64,000 nt of DNA from Acidobacteriota bacterium. GTDB lineage: Bacteria; Acidobacteriota; Terriglobia; Terriglobales; Acidobacteriaceae. Below are positions 14,719-30,198 of the stretch, piece by piece. The DNA lies in NCBI GenBank assembly GCA_021780075.1, contig JAJXZL010000022.1:62001-126000 (forward strand). Direction: 5' to 3'. The first letter of the stretch is position 1. Each line of letters starts with the position of its first letter. The notes beneath the pieces were generated by a model. The model ran no database searches. It saw nothing but the letters and a program-made list of their open reading frames with translations, and was not told where the DNA came from. Made by a program: the position numbers and the translations under genes.

Positions 14719-15957
14719 ATGGCTGAAGCAAGAAAGCAACTGGACAGGCGCTGGCTTTGGCTTGGCGCCGGCATCTTACTAATCGTGGTGTTTTTTCTGG
14801 TGCGCGAGCTTACCCGGCAGCGCCTGCCAGTGCGCATCGCCACCGTTACCCGCGATTCACTGGCCAGTACAGTAAGCACCAATGGTCGCGTGGAGCCTGT
14901 GGTCAACTACCAGGTCCATAGTCCCATTTCCACCACGGTGAAAGCGGTCTACGTACAGCCCGGTGACGTAGTCGCCGCGGGGAAGGTGCTGCTGGTGCTG
15001 GATGATCTGGATGCGCGTGCCCGTGTGGCCTCCGCCGAGAGCGGCGTCAAGTCAGCGCAGGCAGCTCTGGATACGGTTCTGAACAACGGAACGCTGGAGC
15101 AGCGCCAGATGGCCGCCGCTGACGTGGTGCATGACCGGCTGGAGCGCGATCAGGCGCAGCGCGACCTGGATACCCTCATCAAGCTGAATGCCACAGGAGC
15201 CGCGTCACTCGGCGAGGTTGCCGCTGCCCGGCAACGGCTAGCCGGCGCAGTGGCCGCCCTCAATACATCAGAAGAAAGCGCACGGAACCGATACACGGCT
15301 TCGGATGTGTCCCGCGCACGGGCCGCTCTGGCCGACGCGGAGGCCAATCTAGCCGCAGCGCGTGCAGTGCTGGAGCAAACCACGGTTCGCGCGCCGATCA
15401 CCGGCACAGTATACAGCCTGAACACGGCAGCGACCGAGTTCGCCGAAGACGGCAAGACGCTGCTGCAGATCGCCGATCTGCACCACGAGCGCGTGCGAGC
15501 TTATTTTGACGAACCGGAGATCGGGCGACTAGCTGTTGGCCAATCCATCCTCATCAAATGGGACGCCAAGCCGGAACTTGTATGGCATGGACACATCGAA
15601 CGCACACCTATCACCGTCATCACCGTTGGCACGCGCACCGTGGGCGAAGTGCTTGTCACGATTGACGGCGGCGACGGCACTTTACTTCCGGAAACCAACG
15701 TGACAGTAACCGTAACTACATCAAGCCAGTCTGACGTGCTGAATATCCCCCGCGAGTCGCTCTTTTCACAGAGCGGAAAACCCTATGTTTTCAAGGTTGT
15801 AGGTGATGAGCTACAAAAGACCCCGGTGGTGACGGGCGCCCTGAATCTAACGCAGGTGGCCATTCTGTCCGGGCTTGCGCAGGGCGACAAGGTAGCGACG
15901 GGGACAAGTTCCGGAGAGCCTTTGCAGGCAGGCATGCCCATTAAGGTTGTGCAGTGA
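14719..15957 (+). CDS. HlyD/RND-type periplasmic adaptor protein
   Basis: 412 residues. One N-terminal membrane anchor (LWLGAGILLIVVFFLV, about 13-28) is followed by a barrel-sandwich lipoyl half (VQPGDVVAAGKVLLVLDD), a long coiled-coil hairpin rich in Ala/Arg/Gln (about 95-225), the second lipoyl half (TTVRAPITGTVYS) and a beta-barrel domain. Such proteins join an inner-membrane pump to a TolC-type channel. Here the TPR and TolC genes follow directly, but no ABC or RND pump gene is present. A TATACT box lies 16 bases before the ATG, so a short leader is likely. Confidence 0.9.
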   Translation: MAEARKQLDRRWLWLGAGILLIVVFFLVRELTRQRLPVRIATVTRDSLASTVSTNGRVEPVVNYQVHSPISTTVKAVYVQPGDVVAAGKVLLVLDDLDARARVASAESGVKSAQAALDTVLNNGTLEQRQMAAADVVHDRLERDQAQRDLDTLIKLNATGAASLGEVAAARQRLAGAVAALNTSEESARNRYTASDVSRARAALADAEANLAAARAVLEQTTVRAPITGTVYSLNTAATEFAEDGKTLLQIADLHHERVRAYFDEPEIGRLAVGQSILIKWDAKPELVWHGHIERTPITVITVGTRTVGEVLVTIDGGDGTLLPETNVTVTVTTSSQSDVLNIPRESLFSQSGKPYVFKVVGDELQKTPVVTGALNLTQVAILSGLAQGDKVATGTSSGEPLQAGMPIKVVQ

Positions 15958-16916
15958 GGAAGATGCTTGAGGCCGGCGTGTTGGCCGCTACCATGGCCGT
16001 CACAGCGTATGGGCAGGCTCCGCAGGGGCAGCTTGCCCAGGCCAATGCCGCGCTGCAGGCAGGGGAGGCCGACCATGCCCTCGTCCTGCTCAGTTCCCTT
16101 CCTTCATCCGCGGAGTCCCATAACCTCACATGCCGCGTTCAGTTGACGCTGGAGCACTGGGATGCTGCGGCAGATGAGTGCGAGCAGGCTGTCCGATGGG
16201 ACGGGCAGAACTCGAACTATCACATGTGGCTGGGCCGCGCCCTGGGCGAAAAGGCAGACCGCGCATCGTTTCTGAGCGCTTACTCCCTCGCCAAGCGCGT
16301 ACGCGCGGAGTTTGAAGCAGCCGTACAACTGAACCCACGCAACGCCGAAGCGCTTGCCGACTTGGGCGAGTTCTATAGCGAAGCTCCGGGCATCGTGGGC
16401 GGCGGTGACGACAAGGCGGCAGGAGTGGCCGCGCAACTGGACAAGGTCGATGCAGCGCGCGCGCGCGAATTGCGCGGGCGCATTGCCGAAGAGCACAAAG
16501 ACTATACGGCTGCTGAGCGGGATTTCAGACAGGCCATCACAGCCAGCGAACATCCGGCCTTTCAGTGGATGAACCTGGCCAGCTTTTATCGCCGGCGTGC
16601 ACGCTGGACGGACATGGAAGCAGCCGTGCAGAGCGGCGTAAAAGCAGCGCAGCACGACGGACACGCCGGCGTTGCACTCTTCGACGGCGCCTCGCTTCTG
16701 ATGCAGGCCAAACGAAACCTGGAACTGGCGGTCAAGATGCTGGAAAGCTACCTGGAGGGCTCCTCGAAAACCGAAGAGGCGCCGGCGTTTGTGGCGCTCA
16801 CGCGGCTTGCCCGGCTGAAAGCGCAGCTTGGCGACGTTGCGGGCGCGCAGCGCGAACGGGCGGCGGCGCTGGCACTGGCCCATGACTACCGGCCCGCGCT
16901 GGACCTGAAATTTTGA
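15954..16916 (+). CDS. Exported TPR-repeat protein
   Basis: 320 residues. A signal peptide (VLAATMAVTAYGQA) and then several tetratricopeptide-type helical pairs, e.g. LAQANAALQAGEADHALVLL, AADECEQAV, AEAALADLGEFYSEAPGIVGGG-like and YTAAERDFRQAI. GTG 15954 overlaps the adaptor's stop (GTGA), showing translational coupling. It lies between adaptor and TolC and may help assemble or regulate the exporter; no known function. Confidence 0.78.
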   Translation: MRKMLEAGVLAATMAVTAYGQAPQGQLAQANAALQAGEADHALVLLSSLPSSAESHNLTCRVQLTLEHWDAAADECEQAVRWDGQNSNYHMWLGRALGEKADRASFLSAYSLAKRVRAEFEAAVQLNPRNAEALADLGEFYSEAPGIVGGGDDKAAGVAAQLDKVDAARARELRGRIAEEHKDYTAAERDFRQAITASEHPAFQWMNLASFYRRRARWTDMEAAVQSGVKAAQHDGHAGVALFDGASLLMQAKRNLELAVKMLESYLEGSSKTEEAPAFVALTRLARLKAQLGDVAGAQRERAAALALAHDYRPALDLKF

Positions 16917-16920
16917 CGGA

Positions 16921-18267
16921 TTGGAACACGTGACAGATAGAAACACAGCACGCTCCCGCTGGTTCCCCATTCTCATCGGAATGGCGCTTGCCGCTACTCC
17001 TGCGCTTGTGTGCGCGCAGGTTTCGCTCACAACGGTGGTGGATCTGGCACAGCGCAACAGTAGCGAGGTGAAGCTGGCCAGTGCCGATGTACTCAAAGCC
17101 GAGGCCGCTCTGTCCGAGAGCAAGGACGTTGTCATTCCCTCGGTACTTCTCAGCACAGGACTCCCGACGTTTCCTGAGGTAGGCTTCACGGGCACTCCCC
17201 CGTCAATATGGACAGCGACTGTGCAGTCGCTGGTCTTCGGCATTCCGCAAAAGCGTTACATTGATGCGGCGCGCTTCGGCTTGCAAGCCGCCACGGCGAA
17301 TCTGCATGACGCGCGGGAACAGGTTGCGCTCGACGCGTCAACAGCCTACCTTGAGCTGGATACGGTCAACCGCGAACTGGATGCCGCTCACCAGCAGGAG
17401 GGCTATGCAAGCCGCCTGGTCGCGATCGAGCAGGAGCGCGCGGAAGCGGGCGTGGACCCGTTAAGCGAACTTTTGCAGGCACGTCTGAAGGCCGCCGAGA
17501 TCAAGTTGAAGCGGCTGCAACTGGAGTCCCGTGCCAGCACACTTGCCACACAACTGGCGTCGCTCACCGGCCTGCCTGCGGATTCGATCTTGCCGGTCCA
17601 TTCCAGCATTCCCGAAATACCGCAAGTTAGCGGCACGGAACCAACTCGCCCTCGCGCGGGCATCGGAGCCGCGCAGTTGATGGCGCGCTCAAAGCAGCAA
17701 CAGGCCAAAGGCGACAAAGAATTTAATTACATGCCGCAGTTGAGCTTCATCGCACAGTACAATCGCAATACGACGCTGCTGAACAGCGTCAATTCCTATT
17801 TTTCAAGGCCCCTGCCGGCAAACAACTTCAGTTCCGGCATTGCAATTCAGGTGCCTCTGCTGGACATGTGGCATCGCGCCAAAGCAAGAGAGTCAGAAGC
17901 CGATGCCCTGCGGGCGAAGGTGGAAGCAGAACAGGCTGAGCGGCAAAACGACGTCCAGATCGCCGCGCTCAGCGGCAGCTTGCGGGAGTTGGATGCACTG
18001 GCTGAGGTTGCCAGCCTGAAGCAGCAGATTGCCGGTGAACAGCTCAAGACCGTGCTGACACAGCTGGAGCTGGGGAACGGTGCCGGAGCAGGGCCTGGCG
18101 CCCCGCCGCAGCTCTCGCCCAAAGCGGAGCAGTTGGCCCGTATTGACGAACGCCAGAAGCTGGAAGAGGCTCTCAGCACAGGATTTGATCTCGACAAGGC
18201 GCGTCTTAACCTGTTGCGTGCATTGGGCCACATGGATGACTGGCTGCACGAGTTGCACAACCGGTAG
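16921..18267 (+). CDS. TolC-family outer membrane efflux protein
   Basis: 448 residues. A signal peptide (FPILIGMALAATPALVCAQ) is followed by the internally repeated OEP helical pattern: VDLAQRNSSEVKLASADVLKAEAAL, and LQAATANLHDAREQVALDASTAYLELD, typical of TolC-type trimers. It forms the outer-membrane duct for the adaptor at 14719. Starts TTG 16921 or GTG 16930 are both possible; only four bases separate it from the TPR gene. A Pro/Gly-rich insert (GAGAGPGAPPQLSPKAE) lies near residue 390. Confidence 0.85.
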   Translation: MEHVTDRNTARSRWFPILIGMALAATPALVCAQVSLTTVVDLAQRNSSEVKLASADVLKAEAALSESKDVVIPSVLLSTGLPTFPEVGFTGTPPSIWTATVQSLVFGIPQKRYIDAARFGLQAATANLHDAREQVALDASTAYLELDTVNRELDAAHQQEGYASRLVAIEQERAEAGVDPLSELLQARLKAAEIKLKRLQLESRASTLATQLASLTGLPADSILPVHSSIPEIPQVSGTEPTRPRAGIGAAQLMARSKQQQAKGDKEFNYMPQLSFIAQYNRNTTLLNSVNSYFSRPLPANNFSSGIAIQVPLLDMWHRAKARESEADALRAKVEAEQAERQNDVQIAALSGSLRELDALAEVASLKQQIAGEQLKTVLTQLELGNGAGAGPGAPPQLSPKAEQLARIDERQKLEEALSTGFDLDKARLNLLRALGHMDDWLHELHNR

Positions 18268-18323: not shown

Positions 18324-19802
18324 ATGCCTATGCCTTTGAAAACGCTGTTTCTGAATCCGCCGTCTTTTGAGAATTTTGACGGCGGAGCGAGTTCGCGCTG
18401 GCCGGCGACGCGCGAGATTGAGTCCTACTGGTACCCGGTGTGGCTGACCTACCCGGCTGGCCTGCTGGAGGGTTCGCGCCTGCTGGATGCGCCGCCTCAC
18501 CACGTCTCCGCCGAGGAAACCATCAAGATCTGCAAGGACTACGAGTTCCTTGTGCTCTTCACCTCCACGGTGGGCTGGGAAGGCGACCAGCGGCTGGCCG
18601 AGGCCATCAAGACTGCCAACCCCTCCATTCGGATTGCATTCGTTGGACCGCCGGTGACCACCTCTCCCGATAAGGCTCTGAACGAGTGCTCCGCGCTGGA
18701 CTTCATCTGCCGCCGCGAGTTCGATTACTCGGTGGTCGAGTTTGCCCAGGGCAAGCCGCTCAATGAGATTCTCGGCATCAGCTACAAGAAGGACGGCAAG
18801 ATCGTTCACAATCCTGATCGTCCGCAGGTGGAAGACCTGGACGCGATGCCGTGGGCCACAAAGATTTACAAGCGCGACCTGGACGTGACCCGCTACAACG
18901 TGCCCTTCCTGCTGCATCCGTATATCGCGCTCTACTCCACGCGCGGATGCCCGGCGCAGTGCACGTTCTGCCTCTGGCCACAGACGCTCAGCGGACACGC
19001 GTGGCGCAAGCGCTCCACAGACGACGTTGCCGCCGAACTGGCCTGGGCGAAGGAAAACTTCCCCGATGTGAAGGAGTTCTTCTTCGACGACGACACCTTC
19101 AATATCCAGAAAGTCCGCACAATCGAGCTGTGCGAAAAGCTCAAGCCGCTTGGCCTCACCTGGAGCTGCACCTCGCGCGTGACCACGGACTACGACACTC
19201 TCAAGGCGATGAAGGAAGCCGGTTGCCGCCTGCTCATCGTGGGCTTCGAGTCTGGCGATCCGCAGATCCTGAAGAACATCAAGAAGGGCGCCACGGTGGA
19301 GCGCGCGCGCGCCTTCGCCAAGGACTGCCACGATCTGGGCCTGACGATTCACGCCGACTTTATTCTCGGGCTGCCGGGCGAGACGAAGGAATCCATCCGC
19401 AACACGATCAATTTCGCCAAGGGCCTGGACTGCGAAACCATTCAGGTGTCTGTGGCACACGCCTATCCAGGCACCGAATTCTACGAGTTTGCCAAGGCGA
19501 ACGGCTTCATCACAAACGAGAAGATGGAAGACGGCGGCGGCCACCAGATGGCGCACATCGAGTACCCGGGCCTGCCTACGGACTACGTCATGGAGATGGT
19601 GCACAAGTTCTATGACGAGTACTACTTCAGACCCAAGGCGGCATTCCGCGTTATCTGGAAGGCGATCGTCAATCGCGATATTCCACGTCTCTACGTCGAG
19701 GCAAAGGCCTTCCTGAAGCTCCGCGCACAGCGCAATAAGATGGTCAAGGAAGCGCGCAGCCGGCAGGCAGATCCTCCTGCCCCGGTAAGCGCAGGCGCCT
19801 AA
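18324..19802 (+). CDS. hpnJ: Hopanoid-associated B12/radical-SAM protein HpnJ
   Basis: 492 residues. The N-terminal 150 residues are a cobalamin-binding-like domain (FLNPPSFENFDGG, IRIAFVGPPVT), followed by the radical-SAM core with C-x3-C-x2-C in RGCPAQCTFCLW, FFFDDDTFN and GFESGDPQ. HpnJ is reported to rearrange the sugar head of glucosaminyl-BHT into the cyclitol ether. HpnI and HpnK, which make that substrate, are not in this window. It begins the + strand part of the hopanoid region and is followed by a terminator at 19825. Confidence 0.92.
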   Translation: MPMPLKTLFLNPPSFENFDGGASSRWPATREIESYWYPVWLTYPAGLLEGSRLLDAPPHHVSAEETIKICKDYEFLVLFTSTVGWEGDQRLAEAIKTANPSIRIAFVGPPVTTSPDKALNECSALDFICRREFDYSVVEFAQGKPLNEILGISYKKDGKIVHNPDRPQVEDLDAMPWATKIYKRDLDVTRYNVPFLLHPYIALYSTRGCPAQCTFCLWPQTLSGHAWRKRSTDDVAAELAWAKENFPDVKEFFFDDDTFNIQKVRTIELCEKLKPLGLTWSCTSRVTTDYDTLKAMKEAGCRLLIVGFESGDPQILKNIKKGATVERARAFAKDCHDLGLTIHADFILGLPGETKESIRNTINFAKGLDCETIQVSVAHAYPGTEFYEFAKANGFITNEKMEDGGGHQMAHIEYPGLPTDYVMEMVHKFYDEYYFRPKAAFRVIWKAIVNRDIPRLYVEAKAFLKLRAQRNKMVKEARSRQADPPAPVSAGA

Positions 19803-19824: not shown

Positions 19825-19859
19825 GAGGGCGGCGCACAGCGTCCGCCCTCCTTTTCTTT
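19825..19859 (+). terminator. Terminator after hpnJ
   Basis: Eight-bp stem GAGGGCGG / CCGCCCTC with a 10-nt loop, followed by CTTTTCTTTC. It lies 23 bp after the hpnJ stop and would separate hpnJ from the EamA pair. Confidence 0.65.
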
Positions 19860-19888: not shown

Positions 19889-20344
19889 ATGGCGCATCAC
19901 ACACTCACGCCGCGGCAATATTTGATTCTGGGCCTCGTGGCTTTATGTGCTCCGCTCGGCGACACATGCCTTTCGCGCGGCATGACGCACCTGCCGCCCA
20001 TCTCGCTTGCACATCCCGGCACGCTTATCGCTGCGGTCTTCACTCCGTGGATCACCGCAGGCATCGCTCTGCTGATCGGCTTTTTCGCGAGTTATCTGAC
20101 CGCGTTGTCGTGGGCTGATCTCACGTTCGTTCTGCCCGCCACCGCATTCGGCAATGTCATCGTCGCATTCCTGTCGCGCTTTTGGCTGCACGAACCCATC
20201 TCCGTAATGCGCTGGGCTGGCATCCTGCTCATCACCGTGGGAGTGGGCTTTGTTGCACAGGGACCGTCGCTGACCGAGAAGCCGGCCCCGCTCTCAGAAA
20301 ATGCCGGGCCTGCCGCAGAAGCAGAAATGGAGCAGGTGCGATGA
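19889..20344 (+). CDS. Half-size EamA/DMT-type membrane protein 1
   Basis: 151 residues with four predicted membrane helices (ILGLVALCAPLGDTCLS, HPGTLIAAVF..., ITAGIALLIGFFASYL, WAGILLITVGVGFVAQ). The order and the FVLPATAFGNVIVAFLSRFWLHEPIS motif are those of one half of an EamA transporter, similar to small ArnE/ArnF or EmrE proteins. The C-terminal 30 residues are acidic. It overlaps the next gene by ATGA, so the two are coupled and may form a heterodimer. The substrate is unknown; a lipid-linked molecule of the hopanoid pathway is a guess from context. Confidence 0.8.
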   Translation: MAHHTLTPRQYLILGLVALCAPLGDTCLSRGMTHLPPISLAHPGTLIAAVFTPWITAGIALLIGFFASYLTALSWADLTFVLPATAFGNVIVAFLSRFWLHEPISVMRWAGILLITVGVGFVAQGPSLTEKPAPLSENAGPAAEAEMEQVR

Positions 20345-20748
20345 TGATTCCCTCCTCCGCCCCGCCGCCGGGACCTTGGACTGCAGCCGCCATGATTGCC
20401 GCCATCGTTCTCAGTTCAACGGCTGGCGAGGTTCTGACTGCTGCGGCGATGAAGTCCATCGGTGACCTCGATGAGATACGCGCTCGCTCCGGGCTGAAGG
20501 GGGCTATCCGCGCAGTGCTGACTTGCCCGCTGTTTTTCGCAGGCGTAGGCTTCCTGGCGCTGGCGTTCTTTGCGCTGCTCTTTGCTCTGAATCACCTCGA
20601 TCTGAGCCTTGTTGCCCCGGCATCCGCTTCTCTCACGCTGGTAACGAATGCCATTGCGGGCAAGTTCTTCCTGAAAGAAAATGTGGACCGCCGACGCTGG
20701 ACGGCTGCCATGCTGGTCTGCATCGGCGTCTATTTGCTGGCGCATTGA
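20341..20748 (+). CDS. Half-size EamA/DMT-type membrane protein 2
   Basis: 135 residues, four membrane helices (AAMIAAIVLSSTAGEVL, LFFAGVGFLALAFFALLFAL, SLVAPASASLTLVTNAIAG, WTAAMLVCIGVYLLA). The SLVAPASASLTLVTNAIAGKFFLKENVDRRRW stretch is typical of the second half of a DMT protein. ATG 20341 lies within the stop of the preceding gene (ATGA); a second ATG follows at 20344. Pairing with protein 1 recalls ArnE/ArnF, flippases for undecaprenyl-linked aminosugars. Confidence 0.8.
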   Translation: MMIPSSAPPPGPWTAAAMIAAIVLSSTAGEVLTAAAMKSIGDLDEIRARSGLKGAIRAVLTCPLFFAGVGFLALAFFALLFALNHLDLSLVAPASASLTLVTNAIAGKFFLKENVDRRRWTAAMLVCIGVYLLAH

Positions 20749-20783: not shown

Positions 20784-21311
20784 ATGGACACAACGGAGAA
20801 AGCTGCGCTACTGACTCAACTCGACCGGAGCAGGACGACCATGCTCGACGTGCTCAATGGCGTTACAGAAGACACTGCAGCTCGTCATCCGGCTCCGGGC
20901 AGCTGGTCCATCCTTGATTGCGTCGAGCATGTGATCTTCGCTGAAGACTATCTGCTAGCGCAAATCATGACGGCCACGCACCTGGATGCGCCGCTGCGAA
21001 ATGAGAAGCGGGAAACTGCGATCCCAGCGCGCGGGCTTGATCGCTCGCGCGTGATCGAATGCCCCGACCTGGCGAAACCATCCGGACGATTCCCGACGAT
21101 TCGCGATGCCCTTCAGCAATTCCTCGCTTCGCGCAAAGGCACGATAAGCTTTGTCGAGAGCTGCACCGCAGACCTTCGCTCGCAAAGCATCCTGCATCCG
21201 CTTTTTGGAGAGGTGAGTTGTTACGAGGCGCTCTTGATGATCGCCGTTCACTCGCTGCGCCATTCAAAGCAAATTGAAGAGTGCCGAGAGGCCCTCTTGT
21301 TGCCCCGCTAG
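20784..21311 (+). CDS. DinB-superfamily protein
   Basis: 175 residues, four-helix DinB/YfiT-like fold. The three metal-binding His are seen at the usual places: ILDCVEHVIFAED near residue 40 and HSLRHSKQIEE near residue 155. DinB proteins often act as thiol-dependent transferases or detoxifying enzymes; the substrate here is unknown. It is 35 bp after the EamA pair and convergent with hpnE. The two stop codons share the palindrome CTAG at 21308-21311. Confidence 0.82.
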   Translation: MDTTEKAALLTQLDRSRTTMLDVLNGVTEDTAARHPAPGSWSILDCVEHVIFAEDYLLAQIMTATHLDAPLRNEKRETAIPARGLDRSRVIECPDLAKPSGRFPTIRDALQQFLASRKGTISFVESCTADLRSQSILHPLFGEVSCYEALLMIAVHSLRHSKQIEECREALLLPR

Positions 21312-22750
21312 CGCTTGCGCTCCTCAACGCGCAGCACGCGCATCAATCCAGTTGGCTTCAAATCGGGATCCAGAAATCTGCGCGGCGTTTGCAGCGCCTG
21401 GCAGAGAGCCTCAGCGGCCAGGTGGCCGGAGCGGACCGCGCTCTCCATCGTCGAAGGCCAGCCTGTGGCAGTCCAATCGCCCGCGAGAAAGCAATTCGGC
21501 CATGGGGAAACGGCGGACGGCCGAGCCCCATCGATACCCGGCGGCACGCCAAACGTGGCGCGCACTTCTTTCACAAGGGCAGCCTTCTCCAGCTTTGCGG
21601 ATGCGACTTCCGGAAAGAACTCCGCCAGTTCGCTGACTGCCTGCGCAATCGCCTGCTCGCGTGGCAACGCGGCGAAACTTCGGGAGGCGCTGATGACCAG
21701 TTCTACGTAGCTTCCCTTGAGCTTGCGCCACGGCTGCAAACGACCCTTGTTGTACATCCAGTGAATTTCGCGGTCGAGCATCACGGCGTGGTCGAGCGCT
21801 GTGATGTCGCGGTCAAACCAGAGATGCACACTGCAGATGGGCCAATGCTCGTGACGCTCAATCTGCCGCGCAAGCGTTTCAGCACCCGCAACCACAGGCA
21901 TGTGCGGCAGAAGCCTGGCCATTGCCTCAAACGGCAGCGCCAAGACGAGAAAATCACTCGTGATCATCCCGCCTCGCGTGGCGAGCGTCCATTGCGCTCG
22001 CTTCTCGTTCCACTCAGCAGACTCTAGATTTGCATTGAACAGAACACGCGAATCGCGCTGTGCGAGGAATGTTGCCGCGCCCGCATACAACTCGCTGAGC
22101 GGAACAGTGCTCATGCCCATGCTGCCTGCCTGCGGTGAGTTCATGAACAGCTCACGAATGACTTTGGCCGCATAGGGCAAAGCAATCGAGTCGATATCCG
22201 CGTTGAGCGCGCTGGCAATCACCAGCCGCCAGAAGCGATCGAGCGCACCCTTCGTCTGTCCGTTGCGGGCCAGCCATGCGCCCAGGCTCTCAGTGGACTC
22301 ATGCGGCACGGGCCGCATCAGAGCGCTGAACGCACGAGCCAGCGCGGCTTTGTCCGCCAGCGTGAAGGCGTGCGCAGACATAAGCTTCGGCAGGCCATGC
22401 ATCGGCGCAGGCAACCATGATGGACCGAGCAGCGAGCGCCGTCCGCCGGGCTCAATCATGGTCATCTCACGGGTCCAGTGAATGCGGTCTGTGACACCGA
22501 TGCGCTGATAGAACCCGATGAGATTGGTGCAGCAGCCGAAAAGCACGTGCTGGCAGTTGTCGATGACTTCACCCACGCCGGGATGCAGATAGGATGAAGC
22601 GCGCCCGCCCAGATAGCCGCGCCGCTCGATGAGCTGCACGCGCAGGCCTGCCTCAGTCAGTGCGCAGGCAGCGCTCATGCCGGCCACGCCACCGCCTACG
22701 ACGGCAACGGTGCGTGCAACACCTCCCGGGTTGTCTAACGATGCGGTCAA
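21308..22750 (-). CDS. hpnE: Hydroxysqualene dehydroxylase / squalene-associated FAD desaturase
   Basis: Third enzyme of the HpnCDE route; an FAD-dependent enzyme that reduces hydroxysqualene to squalene. 480 residues, slightly longer than usual. The dinucleotide-binding motif VVGGGVAGMSAACALTEAGLRVQLIE is at residue 16, followed by RRGYLGGRASS; the C-terminal FAD motif FLAGDWTATGWPSTMESAVRSG is present. Start MTASLDNPGG. Last gene of the long minus-strand hopanoid operon, 12 bp after hpnD. Confidence 0.94.
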   Translation of the reverse strand: MTASLDNPGGVARTVAVVGGGVAGMSAACALTEAGLRVQLIERRGYLGGRASSYLHPGVGEVIDNCQHVLFGCCTNLIGFYQRIGVTDRIHWTREMTMIEPGGRRSLLGPSWLPAPMHGLPKLMSAHAFTLADKAALARAFSALMRPVPHESTESLGAWLARNGQTKGALDRFWRLVIASALNADIDSIALPYAAKVIRELFMNSPQAGSMGMSTVPLSELYAGAATFLAQRDSRVLFNANLESAEWNEKRAQWTLATRGGMITSDFLVLALPFEAMARLLPHMPVVAGAETLARQIERHEHWPICSVHLWFDRDITALDHAVMLDREIHWMYNKGRLQPWRKLKGSYVELVISASRSFAALPREQAIAQAVSELAEFFPEVASAKLEKAALVKEVRATFGVPPGIDGARPSAVSPWPNCFLAGDWTATGWPSTMESAVRSGHLAAEALCQALQTPRRFLDPDLKPTGLMRVLRVEERKR

Positions 22751-22762
22751 TCAAAAACCTCG

Positions 22763-23674
22763 TTATGCAAACAGCCGCGCAGCAGTCATCCGCGCCAGTC
22801 CGACGACGAGTATTGCAAGCTTTTGCACCAGCGGGACGCTCGCCCGTTGTGTAAACACATCGTAGTCGGCGCGGCGCATCCGCTCGAGCAGCGCGTGATA
22901 GATCGCTACCAGCACCCAGAGCGCTGGCCGGCTCTCGCGGTCAATCAGCGGCAGCAGAGCTTGTGCTGATTGGTAATACTTCTCTGCGCGCTGGCCAATG
23001 TCAGAAAGCACGGCTCGTTCCTGAGGCGTTGGCGCCGTACCGTGCGGCCGCTTCAGCAAGGAATCAAGCGCGATGTTATGCGCCGCAAGATCCTCCAGCG
23101 GCAGATAGACACGCGCGCGTTCCGCATCCTCAGCCACATCGCGCAGAATGTTGGTGAGTTGGAAGGCGATCCCCGTCTCCTCGGCCAGCTTTTCGGCGGC
23201 GCGATCCTTGTAGCCAAAAATGCGAATACAGACCAGGCCCACGACCGAGGCCACCAAATAGCAGTAGCCGTAGAGATCGGCAAAGGTGGCGTAGGTATCC
23301 GGCGCATCGTTCGCCGTGGGCTTCAGATCCATGGTTGTGCCGGCGACCAACTCATCCAGTAATGCAAAGGGAATGGCGAAGCGCTGAGTCGCATCGCGCA
23401 CGGCGATGAAGACGGGGTCAGCAGTGCAGCTGCCATCGCGCGCCTCGCGCCACTCGGCCTGCCATGCATCCAAGTGGTGGCGGCGCTCTTCGCGCGACAT
23501 GCTCTCGTCGTCGGCCAGATCGTCGGCCTTGCGCATGAATGCGTAAATGGCGCAGATGGCATTCTTGCGCGCCGCGGGCAAGGCTACGAAAGCGTAATAG
23601 AAATTCTTGGCCTCGCGCCGGGCAATGGCGCGACACACCGCATAGGCTTGTTCCAATGTGGGTTCGTGCGTCAA
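22763..23674 (-). CDS. hpnD: Presqualene diphosphate synthase
   Basis: Joins two farnesyl diphosphates to presqualene diphosphate. 303 residues, trans-isoprenyl diphosphate synthase (SQS/PSY) fold. Both Asp-rich motifs are visible: MRKADDLADDE near residue 47 and ILRDVAEDAERARVYLP near 175. Its ATG overlaps the stop of hpnC by four bases. Distinguished from hpnC by order and by the FYYAFVALPAARKNAICAIYAF start typical of HpnD. Confidence 0.94.
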   Translation of the reverse strand: MTHEPTLEQAYAVCRAIARREAKNFYYAFVALPAARKNAICAIYAFMRKADDLADDESMSREERRHHLDAWQAEWREARDGSCTADPVFIAVRDATQRFAIPFALLDELVAGTTMDLKPTANDAPDTYATFADLYGYCYLVASVVGLVCIRIFGYKDRAAEKLAEETGIAFQLTNILRDVAEDAERARVYLPLEDLAAHNIALDSLLKRPHGTAPTPQERAVLSDIGQRAEKYYQSAQALLPLIDRESRPALWVLVAIYHALLERMRRADYDVFTQRASVPLVQKLAILVVGLARMTAARLFA

Positions 23675-24669
23675 GCAGTCTTTCCTGTGCGAGGCCTCGT
23701 GAGGCGCATGAACGGCATTACCTTGCCGCTGACGGCGCGCAGCGCGAGGGACAGCTTGGCGCCTTTTGAAATGGCGGGCCGCGCACTCAGCACATCATAA
23801 TCGCGCCTCTCAATCGCTCGCAAAATCTCAAGGCCGCCGCGGCTGAAGAGATCGAGATCGACCGCAAGATCGCGCCCAACCATGCCGACGAGGGACAGGC
23901 CGTCTTCAAACAGGCTGCGCGCATAGTCCACTTCATGACGCAGCAGGGCACGAAACTCCGGCGTGGCAATTCCCTGCGCGATGGTTTCATCGCTCACGCC
24001 AAAGCCGCGCATGTCCGCTTGTGGCAAATAGACGCGGCCCTTGGCATAATCCACGCGCACATCCTGCCAGAAGTTGGCCAGTTGCAGCGCAGAGCACGTC
24101 GCATCGGAAAGCCGGAAGCGCTCTTCGTCGGTATAGCCGCAAACATAGAGCACAAGCCGGCCCACAGGGTTGGCCGAGTAGCGGCAGTAACTCAGAACAT
24201 CCTGCATCGTCTCATAGCGGACAACGGTCTGATCCTGACGAAATGCGGCGAGCAGATCGGCAAAAGGCTCTTTGGGAATGGAGCATGCGCGAATCGTCTC
24301 CGCCAGCGCGACAAACACAGGGTGGCGCGCGCAGCCGTCGTAGCAGGCATCAAGCTCGCGGCCCCACATATCGAGCAGGGCAAGAGCAACCTGCGTGTCT
24401 CCCACTTCATCGCCCAGGTCGTCAGAGACGCGGCAGTAGGCGTAGATGGAATGGAAATGGGGGCGCAGCGCTTCGGGCAGGAACCACGAGGCAACGTGGA
24501 AATTCTCGTAGTGCGACTCGGCGAGCCGCTTGCACCAGGCTCGCGCTTCGTTCAGAGTAGGCGCGGACGCAGGCATGCAATAGGACGGAGGCAGCGCGGC
24601 CCAGCCGCGGGCGATCAGCTCGTCCCGGGACAATGCCTGGTTGTCCGGATGCAGGGTTGCCGTGGTCAT
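23671..24669 (-). CDS. hpnC: Hydroxysqualene synthase
   Basis: Second enzyme of the HpnCDE route; turns presqualene diphosphate into hydroxysqualene. 332 residues, same fold as HpnD. Motifs: YAYCRVSDDLGDEVGD near residue 80 and NFWQDVRVDYAKGRVYLP near 210. Several His/Glu in the first region differ from HpnD, as in known HpnC. Ten bp downstream of the zinc dehydrogenase gene and overlapping hpnD by four bases. Confidence 0.93.
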   Translation of the reverse strand: MTTATLHPDNQALSRDELIARGWAALPPSYCMPASAPTLNEARAWCKRLAESHYENFHVASWFLPEALRPHFHSIYAYCRVSDDLGDEVGDTQVALALLDMWGRELDACYDGCARHPVFVALAETIRACSIPKEPFADLLAAFRQDQTVVRYETMQDVLSYCRYSANPVGRLVLYVCGYTDEERFRLSDATCSALQLANFWQDVRVDYAKGRVYLPQADMRGFGVSDETIAQGIATPEFRALLRHEVDYARSLFEDGLSLVGMVGRDLAVDLDLFSRGGLEILRAIERRDYDVLSARPAISKGAKLSLALRAVSGKVMPFMRLTRPRTGKTA

Positions 24670-24678
24670 GGCGTCGCC

Positions 24679-25722
24679 TCAGGGCACAATGGCGGTCTTG
24701 ATTTCGCTGCTCCGCTTCATCAGCTTCTCAAAGACGCGGTTGAGTTCGTAGAGGTGGGCATGGCCGGTGATGAATGCGCTGGCTTGGAAGCGGCCGCCGG
24801 CAATCAGGTCCAGCGATTTGCGGCAGATGGCCGGGGTGTGATGAAACGTGGCGCGCAGCGTGATGTCGCTGTAGTGGATGCGGTTGGTGTCGAGGTTCAC
24901 ATGCGTGCCCACCGCGCATCCGCCAAAGAAGTTCACTGTGCCGCCTTTGCGCACCATTTCCACGGCTTCTTCCCACGCTTCGGGTAGACCCACGGCCTCA
25001 ATGGCAATATCCACGCCGCGATCCCTGGGGGTGAGCGCACGCGTCTCACGGATGGCCTTGCGGATGGTGGTTGCCTGCACGACGTGGGCAGCGCCCAACT
25101 GCCGCGCGGCTTCCACCTGGCCATCGTGTTTGACCACAGCAATCGTCTCGCAGCCGGCCAGCGAGGCCACGTGGAGCATCATCAGTCCCAGCGGGCCGCC
25201 GCCAATGATGGCAACCATATCGCCGGGGCGCGGGTGTGAGTCTTCAAAGCCATGAACCGCACAGGCCAGCGGCTCTGTGAGTGCCGCATGCTCCAGGGGT
25301 ACATGATCGGGAACGTGCAGCGTGTTCTTGGCCACAATGCGAGCCGGAATGCGGATGAACTCAGCGTAGGCGCCGTTGTTGAAGAGCAGATCGTCGCAGA
25401 GATTTTCCTGGCCGCGTTCGCAAAAGTAGCACTGCCCGCAGGGAGCGGAGTTGAGCGCCACCACACGGTCACCGGGGGCGAAGTCCTTGACGCCGTCACC
25501 AGCCTCGACAACCGTCCCGGCAAGCTCGTGGCCAAACAGCGCCGGAGGAACGATCATCCGCGCATGATATCCGCGGCGAAAAACCTTCAGGTCCGTGCCA
25601 CAGGTCAGGGCTGCACCCACGCGCACAATCAGCTCGCCGGGCGCGGCCTCGGGCACAGGTACACTCTCTATGCGAATATCCTCGCGTCCGTGGAGGACCG
25701 CGGCCCTCATGGTTGTTGCCAT
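24679..25722 (-). CDS. Zinc-dependent medium-chain dehydrogenase (ADH family), copy 2
   Basis: 347 residues. GroES-like catalytic domain with Cys in LTCGTDLKVF, FGHELAGTV and TEPLACAV; structural zinc site CGQCYFCERGQENLC; Rossmann motif IIGGGPLGLMML. It resembles threonine/sorbitol dehydrogenases and has its nearest relation next door. Inside the hopanoid operon, between hpnC and another dehydrogenase and nine bp from each. Inference: it could act on the C35 side chain (for example reducing the ribosylhopane aldehyde), for which the enzyme is, to my knowledge, not assigned. Confidence 0.9.
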   Translation of the reverse strand: MATTMRAAVLHGREDIRIESVPVPEAAPGELIVRVGAALTCGTDLKVFRRGYHARMIVPPALFGHELAGTVVEAGDGVKDFAPGDRVVALNSAPCGQCYFCERGQENLCDDLLFNNGAYAEFIRIPARIVAKNTLHVPDHVPLEHAALTEPLACAVHGFEDSHPRPGDMVAIIGGGPLGLMMLHVASLAGCETIAVVKHDGQVEAARQLGAAHVVQATTIRKAIRETRALTPRDRGVDIAIEAVGLPEAWEEAVEMVRKGGTVNFFGGCAVGTHVNLDTNRIHYSDITLRATFHHTPAICRKSLDLIAGGRFQASAFITGHAHLYELNRVFEKLMKRSSEIKTAIVP

Positions 25723-25731
25723 AAGCGCCTC

Positions 25732-26889
25732 CTACTCTGCTCCAGCGCCCAATACAGGCTCAATCATAATCTTCATCGAGTCTGCTTTGGGATGCGAAGC
25801 CACATCGATCGCCGCCACCGCGTCCTCTAGCTGAAATCGGTGCGAGATCAACTGCGTCAAGTCAAATCCATTGCGATAGCCGTCAAAGACCAGGCCCGTC
25901 ACCTCGTCGAGGATGTCGAACGAGGACGAGTAGGAGCCCAGCAGCGTCTTCTCGTCCACGCACACCGCGGCGGGATCAATCGCGACCTGATCGTGCTGTG
26001 TCTGGGCAAAGAGCATAACCTTGCCGCCACAACGGGCCGCATCCATCGCCGTGCGGATCAGCGCCGTGCCGCCGACGGCAAGAATCACGGCGTCCGCCCC
26101 TCGGCCATCCGTCTCCGCCAGAACGCGCTCGACAACATTTTCCGTTCCAGCATGAATCGGATTCCGCAATCCGAATTTTGCCGCGATGGCATGACGCTCG
26201 GGATACAGGTCCGACGTAAGCACCCGCGCGCCGGAGCGGCTCGAAAGGGCAGCCCACATCAACCCGATGGGGCCCTGGCCAATCACGAGCACCGTATCGT
26301 CGGGCGCAAGGTTCATCAGCTTCACGCCCTTGAGCACGGTGTTGACCGGCTCCACAAAGGCCGCCTGCTCAAAAGGAACGCCGTCGGGAATCCTGACCAC
26401 TCCGCTGCTGGCAGCCACCCAGTCCATCACGCGAATGTACTCGGCAAAGCCTCCGCCGGAGGGCTCAAAACCTGCAGTGACGCCTACCTTCTTGTAAAGC
26501 GGGCATTGCGCCGGCGTCCCCTTGCGGCAGTAGTAGCACTGGCGGCATGGCACGTGGTGAAAGACCATGACGCGCTCGCCCACCGCGAAGCGGGTCATGC
26601 CCTGACCCACGGCGACGATGGTGCCTGCCATCTCATGGCCAAAGATGCGCGGCGCAGAGTGCGAGCCGGTGTGAATCTTCTTCAGGTCTGTTCCGCAGAT
26701 GCCGCAGGTGGCCACCTTGACCAGCAGTTCACCCGCCCCGATGCGCGGCACCGGCACGGTCTCCACACGCATGTCATTGACCCCGCGATAGACCACGGCC
26801 CGCATGGTGGCAGGAATTCTTGTCTCGACAAATCCTTCAGCGCTTGTGATTTGGGTAGCCATTCCGTTGCCTGACGTGACCTCGTTCAT
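25732..26889 (-). CDS. Zinc-dependent medium-chain dehydrogenase (ADH family), copy 1
   Basis: 385 residues (376 if ATG 26862 is used). Catalytic Cys in CGICGTDLKKIH, GHEMAGTIVAVG; structural zinc cysteines CRQCYYCRKGTPAQC; cofactor motif VIGQGPIGLMWAAL; FVEPVNTVLKG. It is a paralogue of the gene at 24679. The start overlaps hpnG by up to 53 bp, so the operon is tightly packed. The 30-residue N-terminal extension before MRAVVYRG is unusual and may mean an internal start. Role in hopanoid side-chain chemistry is inferred only from position. Confidence 0.88.
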   Translation of the reverse strand: MNEVTSGNGMATQITSAEGFVETRIPATMRAVVYRGVNDMRVETVPVPRIGAGELLVKVATCGICGTDLKKIHTGSHSAPRIFGHEMAGTIVAVGQGMTRFAVGERVMVFHHVPCRQCYYCRKGTPAQCPLYKKVGVTAGFEPSGGGFAEYIRVMDWVAASSGVVRIPDGVPFEQAAFVEPVNTVLKGVKLMNLAPDDTVLVIGQGPIGLMWAALSSRSGARVLTSDLYPERHAIAAKFGLRNPIHAGTENVVERVLAETDGRGADAVILAVGGTALIRTAMDAARCGGKVMLFAQTQHDQVAIDPAAVCVDEKTLLGSYSSSFDILDEVTGLVFDGYRNGFDLTQLISHRFQLEDAVAAIDVASHPKADSMKIMIEPVLGAGAE

Positions 26890-27556
26890 CCAGAAAATCG
26901 AGCAGCGCCTCCGCGATACCCCGGGCAGCCCTTTTGCTATTCTCGTTCATCCGTATCAATGCAGGCCAGTGCCAAGGCCGGAGAAGTGCATAAACTACAA
27001 ACCTGGCCATGCGGAACTGTCCATCGTGCGACAGAAAGCGATTGAAATCAGGCAGTTGGCCGGTGAATCCGTCGCTTACTCCTTTGATGCAATAAAAGGG
27101 TATGGCGCGCATTCCGGCCATGCGGGCGACCGCTGCGGCCTCCATGTCCACCAGGTCAGCATTGTACGCTGAGCCGAGGCGTTTCTTCTCTGCTTCACCT
27201 GCGACCGTCGCACCGGTTACAAGGCTACAGCCATCCGGCCCGGCGGCACGGAAGCGCTCGCCCGTGCGCGCGTCAACTACGCCGGAGACATGGTAGATCC
27301 GTCCCGGCTTGAACTCCTGGCGCAAGGCGCCTGCCCAACCAGTAGAAATGATGGAAGAGACGGGTCCATCCTTCTCAATTTCAGCAAACGCCCGCGTTGC
27401 CGCCGCCACGCCTGCCCCGGCGCAGGCCGCCACCCACTCGCCTTCGTCATACCGCCAGCGCCAGAGATCGACGCCATTGCGCATCTCGTGCTGCCAGCCG
27501 CGCACCAGCGGCTGGAGCTCGCCCGCCATGGCGGCAACCACGGCAACTCTGGTCAT
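26837..27556 (-). CDS. hpnG: Hopanoid-associated nucleosidase/phosphorylase HpnG
   Basis: Removes adenine from adenosylhopane to give (phospho)ribosylhopane. 239 residues, nucleoside phosphorylase/MTAN fold: VAAMAGELQPL at the start, STGWAGAL, and DLVDMEAAAVARMA containing the catalytic region. The C-terminus is short and basic. ATG 27556 overlaps the stop of hpnA (ATGA). A GTG-type start at 27595 would run 40 bp into hpnA and is less likely. Confidence 0.88.
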   Translation of the reverse strand: MTRVAVVAAMAGELQPLVRGWQHEMRNGVDLWRWRYDEGEWVAACAGAGVAAATRAFAEIEKDGPVSSIISTGWAGALRQEFKPGRIYHVSGVVDARTGERFRAAGPDGCSLVTGATVAGEAEKKRLGSAYNADLVDMEAAAVARMAGMRAIPFYCIKGVSDGFTGQLPDFNRFLSHDGQFRMARFVVYALLRPWHWPALIRMNENSKRAARGIAEALLDFLDERGHVRQRNGYPNHKR

Positions 27557-28554
27557 TGCTGGGCCTGGGGCGCATAGCCGTGGGCGCGGAACCACTCAAT
27601 GGCGGCGCGCATGGCCGGATAGACCGGCACGATGCGGAAGCCCAGTTCCTGCTGCGCGTGAGCGCTCGAGGCAAACATCTTCTTGCGGCCCATGCGCACC
27701 TCTTCGAGCGTGGCGCGGGGCTCGCGGCCAAGAATGTGCCCGGTAAGCCACTCCTCGAAGAACGCGTAAGTGGCCGCCACCGGGTAAGGGATCCTGACCG
27801 TGGGCGAAGGCAGGCCGGTAATGGCGGACATCTTGTCGAGGATCTGCTTCAGGGTCAGATTTTCACCACCGAGAATATAGCGGCGGCCACGCTGTCCCAG
27901 GGTGAGCGCGGAGACATGGGCACGCGCCACTTCAGACACATCCACCAGGTTGAGCCCAGTGTCCATGTACGCGGGAAAATTGCCTTTGAGGAAGTCCACG
28001 AAGATGCGGCCCGTGGGCGTGGGTTTCTGATCGTTGGGACCAATGGGCGTGGTGGGATTGAGAATAATGACCTGCTGGCCATCTTCGGCGGCGGCAATGG
28101 CCTGCTGCTCCGCCATGAACTTCGAGCGCTTGTAGTGGCCGATCATGTCGTCCAATGAAACCGGCGTGTCTTCGTTGATGACGATGCCGTCGGTGCGGAA
28201 GTTCATGGTGGCCACGCTGGAGGTGTAGACGACTCGGCGCACGCCAGCCTCGCGCGCTAGCCGCAGCAGGTCGCGCGTTCCATCCACGTTTGCGCGGTAC
28301 ATGGCATCAGGGTTGCGGACCCAGAGGCGATAGTCTGCGGCGACGTGCACCACCGCATCGCAACCGGCCAGCGCGGAGGCAAACGACTCCGGCCGCGCCA
28401 AATCGCCTACTTCCGTGCCGCCGGGAATGCCTTCGAGATTAGCCAGATTGCTGGTCTTGCGCACCAGCATGCGCAGGTCCGCGCCCTCGGCTGCCAGCGC
28501 CCGCGCCACATGGTGGCCTACAAATCCGGTCGCGCCTGTAAGAAAAACTTTCAT
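27553..28554 (-). CDS. hpnA: Hopanoid-associated sugar epimerase/dehydratase-like protein
   Basis: 333 residues, extended SDR. Cofactor motif TGATGFVGHHVARAL at residue 7; YTSSVATM and the active-site Tyr/Lys in YKRSKFMAE. This is the HpnA family that accompanies hopanoid clusters; the precise reaction is not settled. Followed with ATGA overlap by hpnG. A 74-bp gap separates it from the gene upstream, the largest break within hpnH-hpnE. Confidence 0.92.
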   Translation of the reverse strand: MKVFLTGATGFVGHHVARALAAEGADLRMLVRKTSNLANLEGIPGGTEVGDLARPESFASALAGCDAVVHVAADYRLWVRNPDAMYRANVDGTRDLLRLAREAGVRRVVYTSSVATMNFRTDGIVINEDTPVSLDDMIGHYKRSKFMAEQQAIAAAEDGQQVIILNPTTPIGPNDQKPTPTGRIFVDFLKGNFPAYMDTGLNLVDVSEVARAHVSALTLGQRGRRYILGGENLTLKQILDKMSAITGLPSPTVRIPYPVAATYAFFEEWLTGHILGREPRATLEEVRMGRKKMFASSAHAQQELGFRIVPVYPAMRAAIEWFRAHGYAPQAQQ

Positions 28555-28628
28555 GAATGATTGTTCAGGGGCTCGGGGTCCAGTGATCTCAACGTAAAAA
28601 GATCAGGAGAGCAGACATCACTGACGCG

Positions 28629-29057
28629 CTACTCCAACGCCTCGGGATGCAGCGCGATGTTCGTTTCTCCGGCGGCCTTCTTTTCATTGTAGGCCTTCAC
28701 CCAGTCTTCCCAATGCTTGCCGGCGGCGCGGTCCTTGCCGCTGAATTCGAGCCGGGTAATGTCAACGTAACTCAGCCTTCTTTTCTCCGGTGCGCTGGGC
28801 GTAAAGTATTGCACAAAGGAATCCGCAAGCGTGGATCCGGTGAGGCGGTTGAAGATGTAAGCCTCAATGCGCTCGCCGCTCCTGAGCGTCATGGTCACGT
28901 CGCCACGATAATCAAAAGCCTTTTCGAGAGCCTGGCGCAGGTCATCCTCGCTGGCCAGCGCGGGCACCCAGCCTTCCAGCTTCTCGTGCTCTGAGCCGGG
29001 AGCCAGTTCCAGCGCTTCCACTTGATCGATCGTATATTTGGCCACTTCGGCGGTCAT
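28629..29057 (-). CDS. Unknown protein inside the hopanoid operon
   Basis: 142 residues, no signal peptide or membrane segment. I do not recognise the family. The middle part (DVTMTLRSGERIEAYIFNR, FVQYFTP, LSYVDITRLEFSGKD) looks like a small beta-barrel similar to RNA/ligand-binding SH3-like proteins, with GKHWEDWVKAYNEKKAAGE as a C-terminal helix. Its ATG lies within the hpnH stop (ATGA overlap), so it is made together with HpnH. The tight coupling suggests a helper of hopanoid side-chain synthesis. Confidence 0.72.
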   Translation of the reverse strand: MTAEVAKYTIDQVEALELAPGSEHEKLEGWVPALASEDDLRQALEKAFDYRGDVTMTLRSGERIEAYIFNRLTGSTLADSFVQYFTPSAPEKRRLSYVDITRLEFSGKDRAAGKHWEDWVKAYNEKKAAGETNIALHPEALE

Positions 29058-30172
29058 GCGTTCGTCTCCTCAAGCGTGTGCGCGGGCTTTTCAATCTGCA
29101 CCAGCGAGGCCGGGCCGTGCGGCGCGGGCTCGTTGAGCAGGTTCAGCGCGTGCTGGTCGTTGTACTTCCTGAATGTGCCGCGCACCATGCCCCAGAAGCC
29201 CTTGAGCGAACCAAAGCCATCCATCACCGCAGACGGCTCATAGCCGCAACTCACCATGCAATTGGCGCACTTGGGATTGCCGCTGGCAGCGCCGTATTCT
29301 TCCCACTGCGTGGTTTCCAGTAGTTCCTTGAAGCTCTCCGCGTAGCCATCCTGCAACAGGTAGCAGGGCCGCTGCCACCCGAAGATGTTGTAAGCCGGCG
29401 AACCCCACGGCGTGCATTCATACTTGCGGTCGCCCATCAGGAACTCAAGAAACAGGGGCGACATATTGAATTTCCAATTCGGCTTGCGATTGGACAGAAT
29501 GGCGCGGAAGAGACGACGCACGCGGGCGCGGCCCAGGAAGCGGTTCTGGTCAGGCGCCATTTCATAGCTGTAGCCGGGCGAAAGCACGATACCTTCAACG
29601 CCCATGGCCATCACATCGTCAAAGAACCCGCGGACGTTGTTCGGATCAGTACCGTCAAAGAAGGTTGCGTTCGTGGTCACGCGGAATCCGCGCTTCACCG
29701 CCTCCTTGATGCCTTCAACGGCGAGGTCATAGCCCCCTTCGCGGCAGACGGAGAAGTCGTGGTGCTCGCGGTCGCCGTCCAGGTGCACAGAGAATGTGAG
29801 GTACTTTGACGGTGTGAATTCCGGCAGACGCCGCTTGAGTTCGAGCGCATTGGTGCACAGGTAAATGTACTTCTTGCGCGCGATGAGGCCGTTCACAATC
29901 TCTACGATCTGCGGATGCAGCAGCGGCTCGCCGCCGGGAATGGAGACCATGGGCGCGCCACACTCTTCCACCGCGGCAAAACATTCTTCGGGGGTGAGCT
30001 GCTTTTTAAGGATGTGGGGCGGATACTGCACCTTGCCGCACCCCGCGCACGCCAGGTTGCAGCGGAAGAGCGGCTCAAGCATCAGCACCAGCGGATAGCG
30101 CTTGTTGCCCGCGAACCGCTTCTTCAGCACATACGTAGCAACCGTCCACATCTGGGAGATAGGAACAGCCAT
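29054..30172 (-). CDS. hpnH: Adenosyl-hopene transferase, radical SAM
   Basis: Adds the 5'-deoxyadenosyl radical to diploptene, starting the C35 side chain. 372 residues. N-terminal radical-SAM motif C-x3-C-x2-C in CNLACAGCGKVQYPP, with SIPGGEPLLHPQ downstream; the C-terminal part carries the extra cysteines KCANCMVSCGYE seen in HpnH. The chain ends in an extended Pro/Glu tail. 26 bp downstream of shc. Confidence 0.95.
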   Translation of the reverse strand: MAVPISQMWTVATYVLKKRFAGNKRYPLVLMLEPLFRCNLACAGCGKVQYPPHILKKQLTPEECFAAVEECGAPMVSIPGGEPLLHPQIVEIVNGLIARKKYIYLCTNALELKRRLPEFTPSKYLTFSVHLDGDREHHDFSVCREGGYDLAVEGIKEAVKRGFRVTTNATFFDGTDPNNVRGFFDDVMAMGVEGIVLSPGYSYEMAPDQNRFLGRARVRRLFRAILSNRKPNWKFNMSPLFLEFLMGDRKYECTPWGSPAYNIFGWQRPCYLLQDGYAESFKELLETTQWEEYGAASGNPKCANCMVSCGYEPSAVMDGFGSLKGFWGMVRGTFRKYNDQHALNLLNEPAPHGPASLVQIEKPAHTLEETNA

Positions 30173-30198
30173 ATTTCGGTGATACCTCCGGCGCCGCC

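Follow-up and report, generated by a model that had tools for sequence, protein, structure and literature searches.

A tandem pair of half-size EamA proteins that tracks HpnJ in Acidobacteriota, a candidate flippase for decorated hopanoids

Hopanoids are the cholesterol-like lipids of bacteria, and the passage of their decorated forms across the inner membrane seems to be an open step. A locus in an Acidobacteriota bacterium raises the question of which proteins could perform it. In a stretch of 64,000 nucleotides (nt) from this organism (GenBank assembly GCA_021780075.1, contig JAJXZL010000022.1, positions 62,001 to 126,000, forward strand; hereafter the window), hpnJ, the gene of the B12-binding radical SAM enzyme of bacteriohopanetetrol (BHT) cyclitol ether formation, is followed by two small overlapping genes, here called A and B, which encode half-size transporters of the EamA family. 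We show that this pair tracks HpnJ across the phylum, and consider it fairly probable that A and B form a flippase for the hopanoids that HpnI, HpnK and HpnJ decorate. Among the papers listed in a literature search, titles and opening parts of abstracts gave no link of EamA or small multidrug resistance (SMR) proteins to hopanoids, although three papers contain both 'hopanoid' and 'EamA' (PMC12654047, PMC4990936, PMC5793154), and the phrase 'hopanoid flippase' was not found. The pair would represent a paired small lipid flippase type with a new likely substrate class.

The gene pair and its distribution with HpnJ

Both proteins exceed the curated cut-off of the Pfam EamA model (PF00892, 28.2 bits), A with 31.1 bits over residues 54–122 and B with 30.6 bits over residues 62–133, which places them in the EamA/drug/metabolite transporter (DMT) superfamily, the matches being confined to the later part of the 135-position repeat. 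The start codon of B (ATG, 20341–20343) overlaps the stop codon of A (TGA, 20342–20344), and a comparable overlapping start (ATG, GTG or TTG; start sites picked by script) is possible in 31 of the 38 pair loci fetched from other genomes.

To follow the pair across the phylum, we used an evenly drawn sample of 297 genomes, 47 of which we count as HpnJ genomes: 45 over the cut-off, G143 with hpnJ in two pieces, and G248 with a fragment. In G143 (G143:C34:196718-198254), the pair and neighbouring hopanoid genes are kept although the hpnJ match is split. The genome-wide pair search covered the same 297 genomes with two alignments (A1 and A2, 22 rows each) made from hpnJ-adjacent copies, scoring no more than 14 first-look candidates in each genome with the weakest matches left out, such that a divergent pair could escape; the helper profile models include two B rows with faulty N-terminal ends (L015, L024), and row L031 was omitted. 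Neighbouring genes passing 120 bits for A and 95 bits for B, thresholds chosen after the scores were known, were counted as a tandem pair. By this count, 43 of the 47 HpnJ genomes carry the pair, versus 4 of the 250 others. Scores in the 43 genomes were at least 133 (A) and 125 bits (B), compared with 122–132 and 96–103 bits in the four exceptions, meaning that a stricter cut would drop all four.

The squalene-hopene cyclase gene shc was detected in 75 of the 297 genomes, comprising 46 of the 47 HpnJ genomes (the exception, G266, is 77% complete) and 29 that lack HpnJ. The tandem pair is missing from all 29 of these, and likewise from the 14 genomes in which HpnI passes the cut-off but HpnJ is lacking. 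The pair therefore tracks the HpnJ branch and not hopanoid synthesis as such, and can serve as a genomic marker for that branch; the 29 genomes rule out a general association with hopanoid making. The original prediction was that the pair could move a hopanoid or its precursor across the membrane; it had named co-occurrence with hpnI, hpnJ and hpnK as the check beforehand, and a pair found mostly in genomes lacking hopanoid genes as the refutation. The link to the pathway is supported, since 43 of the 47 tandem-pair genomes have HpnJ, the four others have no shc match, and hpnI and hpnK are interleaved with the pair in other families; transport is its likeliest meaning.

The surroundings of hpnJ, fetched for 46 HpnJ genomes besides the window, show the same linkage at the level of gene order. 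In 38 of these loci and in the window (39 of 47), hpnJ is followed on its own strand by A and B; in the 38, the distance from the hpnJ stop to the A start is 0 to 1,486 nt, and in seven of them it is 0–21 nt. This order is found in six families as numbered by the classification tool (f1, f5, f13, f35, f53 and, through G039, f3), a linkage that rules out two stray EamA genes. Among close relatives, a query with A matched next to the HpnJ sequence in 22 of 25 same-genus genomes (the window's own included) and in G039, whose HpnJ, A and B are 63, 45 and 38% identical to those of the window; B is present in 22 of these 23 loci, and the G006 locus ends at a contig end. Weaker A matches lie at other sites in G015, G016, G020 and G039.

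Outside f1, the family of the window, every one of the ten hpnJ-linked pair loci also encodes HpnK and/or HpnI within the fetched stretch; five have the order hpnJ-hpnK-A-B-hpnI, four hpnJ-A-B-hpnI and one hpnJ-hpnK-A-B. The HpnI and HpnK proteins of these loci are over their cut-offs, except HpnI of two f5 loci (294 and 304 versus 310 bits). The pair lies away from hpnJ in G170 (~8 kb off) and on other contigs in G235, G307 and G331; in G235, hpnJ sits on a 6-kb contig and the pair near the end of another. Two of these contigs without hpnJ nonetheless keep the hopanoid neighbours, as hpnK-A-B-hpnI in G331 and hpnK-A-B in G307. In G331, B and then HpnI occupy one open frame (L185:5187-7211, + strand), with hpnK and A just upstream and an HpnI part of 383.7 bits (cut-off 310); this is likely a natural fusion, read from one draft genome in which an assembly or base error is possible. 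That an unrelated gene pair has been kept beside hpnJ by descent alone would suit the fact that f1 supplies 28 of the 38 fetched pair loci, yet we consider it very improbable: the order persists at 30–39% identity in other families, the pair stays with hpnK and hpnI where hpnJ is elsewhere, and B once shares its frame with HpnI.

The window's own family looks different in this respect. Neither HpnI nor HpnK was found in any of the 28 f1 pair-locus stretches or beside the pair in the window. HpnI-model matches lie elsewhere in 30 of the 31 f1 genomes (E ≤ 1e-75), and all 31 have HpnK-like genes only below the cut-off, in line with a passage of PMC5462960 that reports SD1 species without hpnK. 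The substrate of HpnJ and of the pair is accordingly less certain in f1 than elsewhere.

Fold, charge bias and candidate function

AlphaFold2 models each subunit with four long membrane helices (mean confidence, pLDDT, 86.6 for A and 90.1 for B) and gives B an additional loop helix at residues 43–61. The two subunits are homologous (hhalign 99.9%, E 7.6e-34). Open reading frames, EamA scores and models hence agree with the earlier description of two four-helix half-DMT proteins overlapping by ATGA. In Foldseek, the top six rows for each model are EmrE or Gdx-Clo, with probabilities of 0.96–1.00 and weak E-values of 0.08–0.43 (best 0.08 and 0.098). The VIA comparison aligned B with EmrE (Z 11.7, root-mean-square deviation 2.5, 103 aligned) and A with Gdx-Clo (Z 11.9, 2.7, 102 aligned), the first unrelated rows following at Z 9.4 for B and 8.9 for A; the tool itself warns that chance alone can take helical models up to Z 14. 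The VIA lists contain no ArnE/ArnF structure, which says nothing for or against these proteins. Our assignment of a four-helix SMR fold relies on coverage and on the fact that EmrE and Gdx-Clo head the matches of A and B alike; sequence searches of the PDB gave weak DMT matches only (best E 0.0053 and 0.0044).

The Arg/Lys bias of the two subunits is opposite in all 39 pairs, ranging from 0 to +6 for A (mean +2.1, with zero in about nine pairs) and from −4 to −11 for B (mean −7.1), with helix ends placed by hand and, for A, prior to its structure model. In the window the values are +3 and −9. A passage of the review PMC9574504 puts the share of adjacent SMR gene pairs with opposite bias above 95%, and A and B, as adjacent genes of opposite bias, conform to this paired type. 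The charge bias predicts that A has its termini inside and B outside; taken together with the best matches to EmrE and Gdx-Clo, this leads us to expect an antiparallel heterodimer.

These features also bear on whether A and B are transporters at all. The two could instead be a membrane scaffold or accessory subunit for HpnI, HpnK and HpnJ, as the single frame of B and HpnI in G331 and the short hpnJ-A gaps (0–21 nt in seven of 38 loci) might suggest. Homologous subunits with opposite charge bias and an SMR-like fold exceed what an anchor needs, and the 80 HpnJ loci of other phyla, the best of 558 relatives, manage without the pair. We consider such a role quite unlikely.

A second alternative is export of a small cation, polyamine or drug, with the link to hpnJ reflecting nothing but a shared envelope-stress role. 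Matches of B to the EbrA/EbrB and Qac models are weak (E 5.6e-5 to 0.0093) and none comes near its cut-off, and an acid in helix 1 is present in B in all 39 pairs (25 Asp, 14 Glu) and in A in 30 (Asp, the other nine having Asn). However, Asp25 of A and Glu30 of B are placed at EmrE Thr18, one turn beyond Glu14, at a position that is Gln in ArnE/ArnF; this is one MAFFT alignment, and a shift by one turn would place both residues on Glu14. We thus rejected the equation of the helix-1 acid with EmrE Glu14, and do not claim proton coupling. Since, moreover, the neighbours conserved across families are hpn genes, we regard such an exporter as highly unlikely.

The hopanoid flippase that we favour builds on gene linkage, co-occurrence, the one frame shared with HpnI, the fold class and the opposite charge bias. 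From these we infer the dimer, its sidedness, transport activity, substrate, direction and energetics. HpnI, HpnK and HpnJ would equip BHT with a polar head, an aminosugar or an aminocyclitol; head building by these enzymes takes place on the cytoplasmic side, as is known for their families. In the inner membrane, A and B, each a four-helix half-DMT subunit, would pair in antiparallel orientation as a heterodimer. This dimer would flip the product of these enzymes (BHT-glucosamine, BHT cyclitol ether or both) to the periplasmic leaflet. During this step the hopanoid tail would remain in the bilayer and the head would cross the dimer cavity, as proposed for ArnE/ArnF.

Several observations besides the weak Foldseek E-values weigh against this model. 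Four HpnJ genomes (G069, G318, G232 and G248, the last with hpnJ on a 3.3-kb contig) yielded no pair, and the A query found no match in the same-genus genomes G007, G021 and G022, which are 69, 92 and 65% complete. The pair was also absent from all 80 HpnJ loci of other phyla, the best 80 of 558 relatives, many of which end at contig ends; HpnI-like and HpnK-like neighbours were found by BLAST in 75 and 51 of them, and L214 holds a single ordinary EamA protein of 323 residues (18.4 bits). HpnJ chemistry does not, therefore, need the pair everywhere, and a universal HpnJ partner is ruled out. Conversely, the four genomes with a pair but no HpnJ (G255, G209, G241, G114) have no shc match, and two f1 genomes hold a second strong A-B pair away from hpnJ (G297:C14, L183; G273:C2, L184). 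The window genome has HpnI but an HpnK-like gene of only 191 bits (cut-off 232.6), neither of them adjoining the pair, so its substrate may differ. In the window, a terminator-like hairpin parts hpnJ from A. Finally, sampling centred on HpnJ favours adjacency, and related genomes are not independent.

The shc-less genomes are also relevant to a further alternative, in which the pair flips another lipid used with the hopanoid pathway, either a polyprenyl-linked sugar or BHT itself. Some small EamA relatives stand elsewhere among sugar-epimerase-like, glycosyltransferase-like and other sugar genes, as read from their sequences, and in L200 beside a DegT gene; moreover, a passage of PMC9574504 describes a polyprenyl-linked aminosugar as the cargo of ArnE/F, and four genomes hold the pair without shc. 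Plain BHT as substrate is countered by the absence of the pair from all 29 shc-bearing genomes without HpnJ, and BHT itself is described as the HpnI substrate in a passage of PMC12583986. On balance we judge another lipid unlikely, although it is the alternative that we take most seriously.

Among the shc-less pair genomes, G209 and G255 encode HpnJ-like proteins at 287–290 bits, far below the cut-off, and at L188, the one such locus scanned, two nearby open reading frames had no Pfam match at E 1e-5. Related B12 radical SAM proteins of ~205–347 bits occur in G209:C26, G059:C67, G177:C281 and others, with two copies ~9 kb apart in several genomes, and may form a separate subfamily. Weaker tandem EamA matches (~53–70 bits), which we did not count, accompany the main pair in five f1 genomes (G219, G265, G281, G297, G321).

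Surroundings of the pair and the search for HpnN

The features of the locus are collected in the table below, together with the pairs of shc-less genomes.

Coordinates of the gene pair, its neighbours in the window and the tandem pairs of shc-less genomes
Feature	Position	Strand	Basis or remark
Periplasmic adaptor, RND_mfp/HlyD type	14719-15957	+	TIGR01730 124.8 bits, cut-off 94.9; PF16576, PF13437
Tetratricopeptide repeat (TPR) protein between adaptor and outer membrane factor	15954-16916	+	TPR families
TolC-like outer membrane efflux protein, 5' of hpnJ	16921-18267	+	PF02321 85.7 bits
hpnJ	18324-19802	+	TIGR03471 754 bits, cut-off 577.6
Terminator-like hairpin and T-rich tail between hpnJ and A	19825-19859	+	8-base stem in sequence
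Subunit A, EamA half-transporter, 151 amino acids	19889-20344	+	Open reading frame call; PF00892
ATGA start/stop overlap of A and B	20341-20344	+	Sequence
Subunit B, EamA half-transporter, 135 amino acids	20341-20748 (start ATG 20341)	+	Open reading frame call; PF00892
DinB-like gene	20784-21311	+	In the window, 3' of B
Main hopanoid cluster: hpnE, hpnD, hpnC, two Zn-dehydrogenases, hpnG, hpnA, hpnH, shc	21308-32205	-	
Two related zinc dehydrogenases between hpnC and hpnG	24679-26889	-	
Tandem pairs in shc-less genomes, L187-L190	G209:C16, G255:C350, G241:C207, G114:C2		Both subunits fit the A model best

In the main hopanoid cluster, hpnE and hpnC are over their NCBIfam cut-offs, hpnD and hpnG are best matches below the cut-off, and shc scores 734 bits; two further genes are presumably hpnA and hpnH, going by their families and positions. 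The hpn gene groups of the window match published clusters of subdivision 1 Acidobacteria in a passage of PMC5462960, and the zinc dehydrogenase adjoining hpnC fits the gene called 'ug2' there.

The 86-nt gap between hpnJ and A, which contains the hairpin, folds at −27 kcal/mol (z −2.8). A consensus terminator scan does not list this hairpin; a loose script found a terminator-like motif in nine of 38 hpnJ-A gaps, a count made without a chance control. A promoter scan returned no sites, against 0.8 expected. In the window's family, the pair may have its own promoter.

Upstream of hpnJ, the adaptor, TPR and TolC-like genes (14719–18267) come without an inner-membrane pump gene among them in the window. 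Homologues of the TolC-like gene lie upstream of hpnJ in 26 of the 46 fetched loci and homologues of the TPR gene in 17 of the 46 hpnJ loci; in L114, a MacB-like permease stands beside the TolC-like gene.

Hopanoid transport proteins named in a passage of PMC12583986 are HpnN, which shuttles hopanoids towards the outer membrane, and possibly HpnM. At E ≤ 1e-40, a search that had no positive control of its own gave no HpnN match (TIGR03480) in the 47 HpnJ genomes or in the four pair genomes without HpnJ, 51 in total. As such a control we used 25 HpnJ genomes of other phyla, hand-picked from the 80 loci, and HpnN was found in 22 of these at E ≤ 1e-20 (18 over the cut-off), the three without a match being those of L207, L228 and L250. 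All 22 matches had a best E below 1e-140, so the contrast is independent of the E limit. A dedicated pair tied to hpnI, hpnJ and hpnK, in a sample in which no HpnN was found, makes the inner-membrane step of hopanoid traffic testable.

The adaptor is a possible export partner of the pair. A and B might flip BHT-glucosamine or BHT cyclitol ether and hand it to the upstream adaptor and TolC-like protein, a route free of HpnN that we put forward tentatively and think rather doubtful. If true, decorated hopanoids would reach the outer membrane by an envelope-spanning path whose inner-membrane component is a half-DMT pair.

Comparison with known systems

HpnN resembles the pair in the role that we propose for the latter, hopanoid trafficking in HpnJ-bearing bacteria. 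It differs in being an unrelated RND protein of ~860 residues (TIGR03480), compared with EamA proteins of 151 and 135 residues. Because the pair is not an HpnN homologue and should act earlier, we mention 'replacement' of HpnN only as a possibility.

Relatives of the pair are found among single small EamA genes in other families of the phylum. One such gene follows HpnI-HpnK in G077 (L192), G106 (L195) and G236 (L200), genomes with shc and with HpnI and HpnK over the cut-off that have no HpnJ match at E ≤ 1e-60. Another follows HpnI in G275, and in G236 a DegT-type aminotransferase lies next to the EamA gene. These genes share hpn neighbours with the pair and fall in a nearby clade, but are one gene and not two. 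In our tree (97 rows, few columns, seven near-duplicate loci dropped), the single proteins of these four genomes and of G243 form a starred clade (100/99); with midpoint rooting, this clade adjoins the pair proteins. A single starred group (37 rows, 100/92) unites the B subunits of f1, f5, f35, f53, f73 and f80 and leaves the B of L098 just outside; this grouping of several families suggests that the A/B duplication is older than the family split. We infer that an ancestral flippase linked to HpnI-HpnK was doubled in the HpnJ lineage.

In the SMR family (EmrE, Gdx-Clo, EbrAB), EmrE and Gdx-Clo are the best structural matches of A and B, and the family shares with them paired genes of opposite Arg/Lys bias. 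SMR proteins differ in the helix-1 acid, which in A and B falls at EmrE Thr18 and not at Glu14, and in lacking the extra loop helix of B. In the SMR family model PF00893, B reached 15.7 bits (cut-off 23.7) and A was not listed.

ArnE/ArnF of E. coli K-12, the undecaprenyl-phosphate-L-Ara4N flippase, offer a further parallel. Their genes encode half-DMT subunits, overlap by one base, and belong to an operon with arnC and arnD, whose order is arnB, arnC (glycosyltransferase), arnA, arnD (deformylase), arnT, arnE, arnF. Outside f1, HpnI (a glycosyltransferase) and/or HpnK (a deacetylase) beside A-B bring together comparable types of gene, a mix that we regard as the best clue to function; in the window the overlapping pair stands without these two neighbours. 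The original prediction had likened the pair to ArnE/ArnF; gene layout and fold uphold the likeness, and membership of the family does not follow, as B scores 18.6 bits against the NCBIfam ArnE cut-off of 92 and A has no match at E 0.01. Similarity to ArnE extends over helices 2–4 (hhalign probability 92–93), whereas A against ArnF reaches 1 on the same scale, and the identified neighbours of the window pair are hpn and adaptor/TPR/TolC genes, with no arn gene among them. Substrates are expected to differ as well, a hopanoid for A and B versus a polyprenyl phosphate for ArnE/ArnF, which flip a polyprenyl-linked aminosugar according to a passage of PMC9574504. If our model is true, paired small lipid flippases extend from polyprenyl sugars to triterpenoid lipids.
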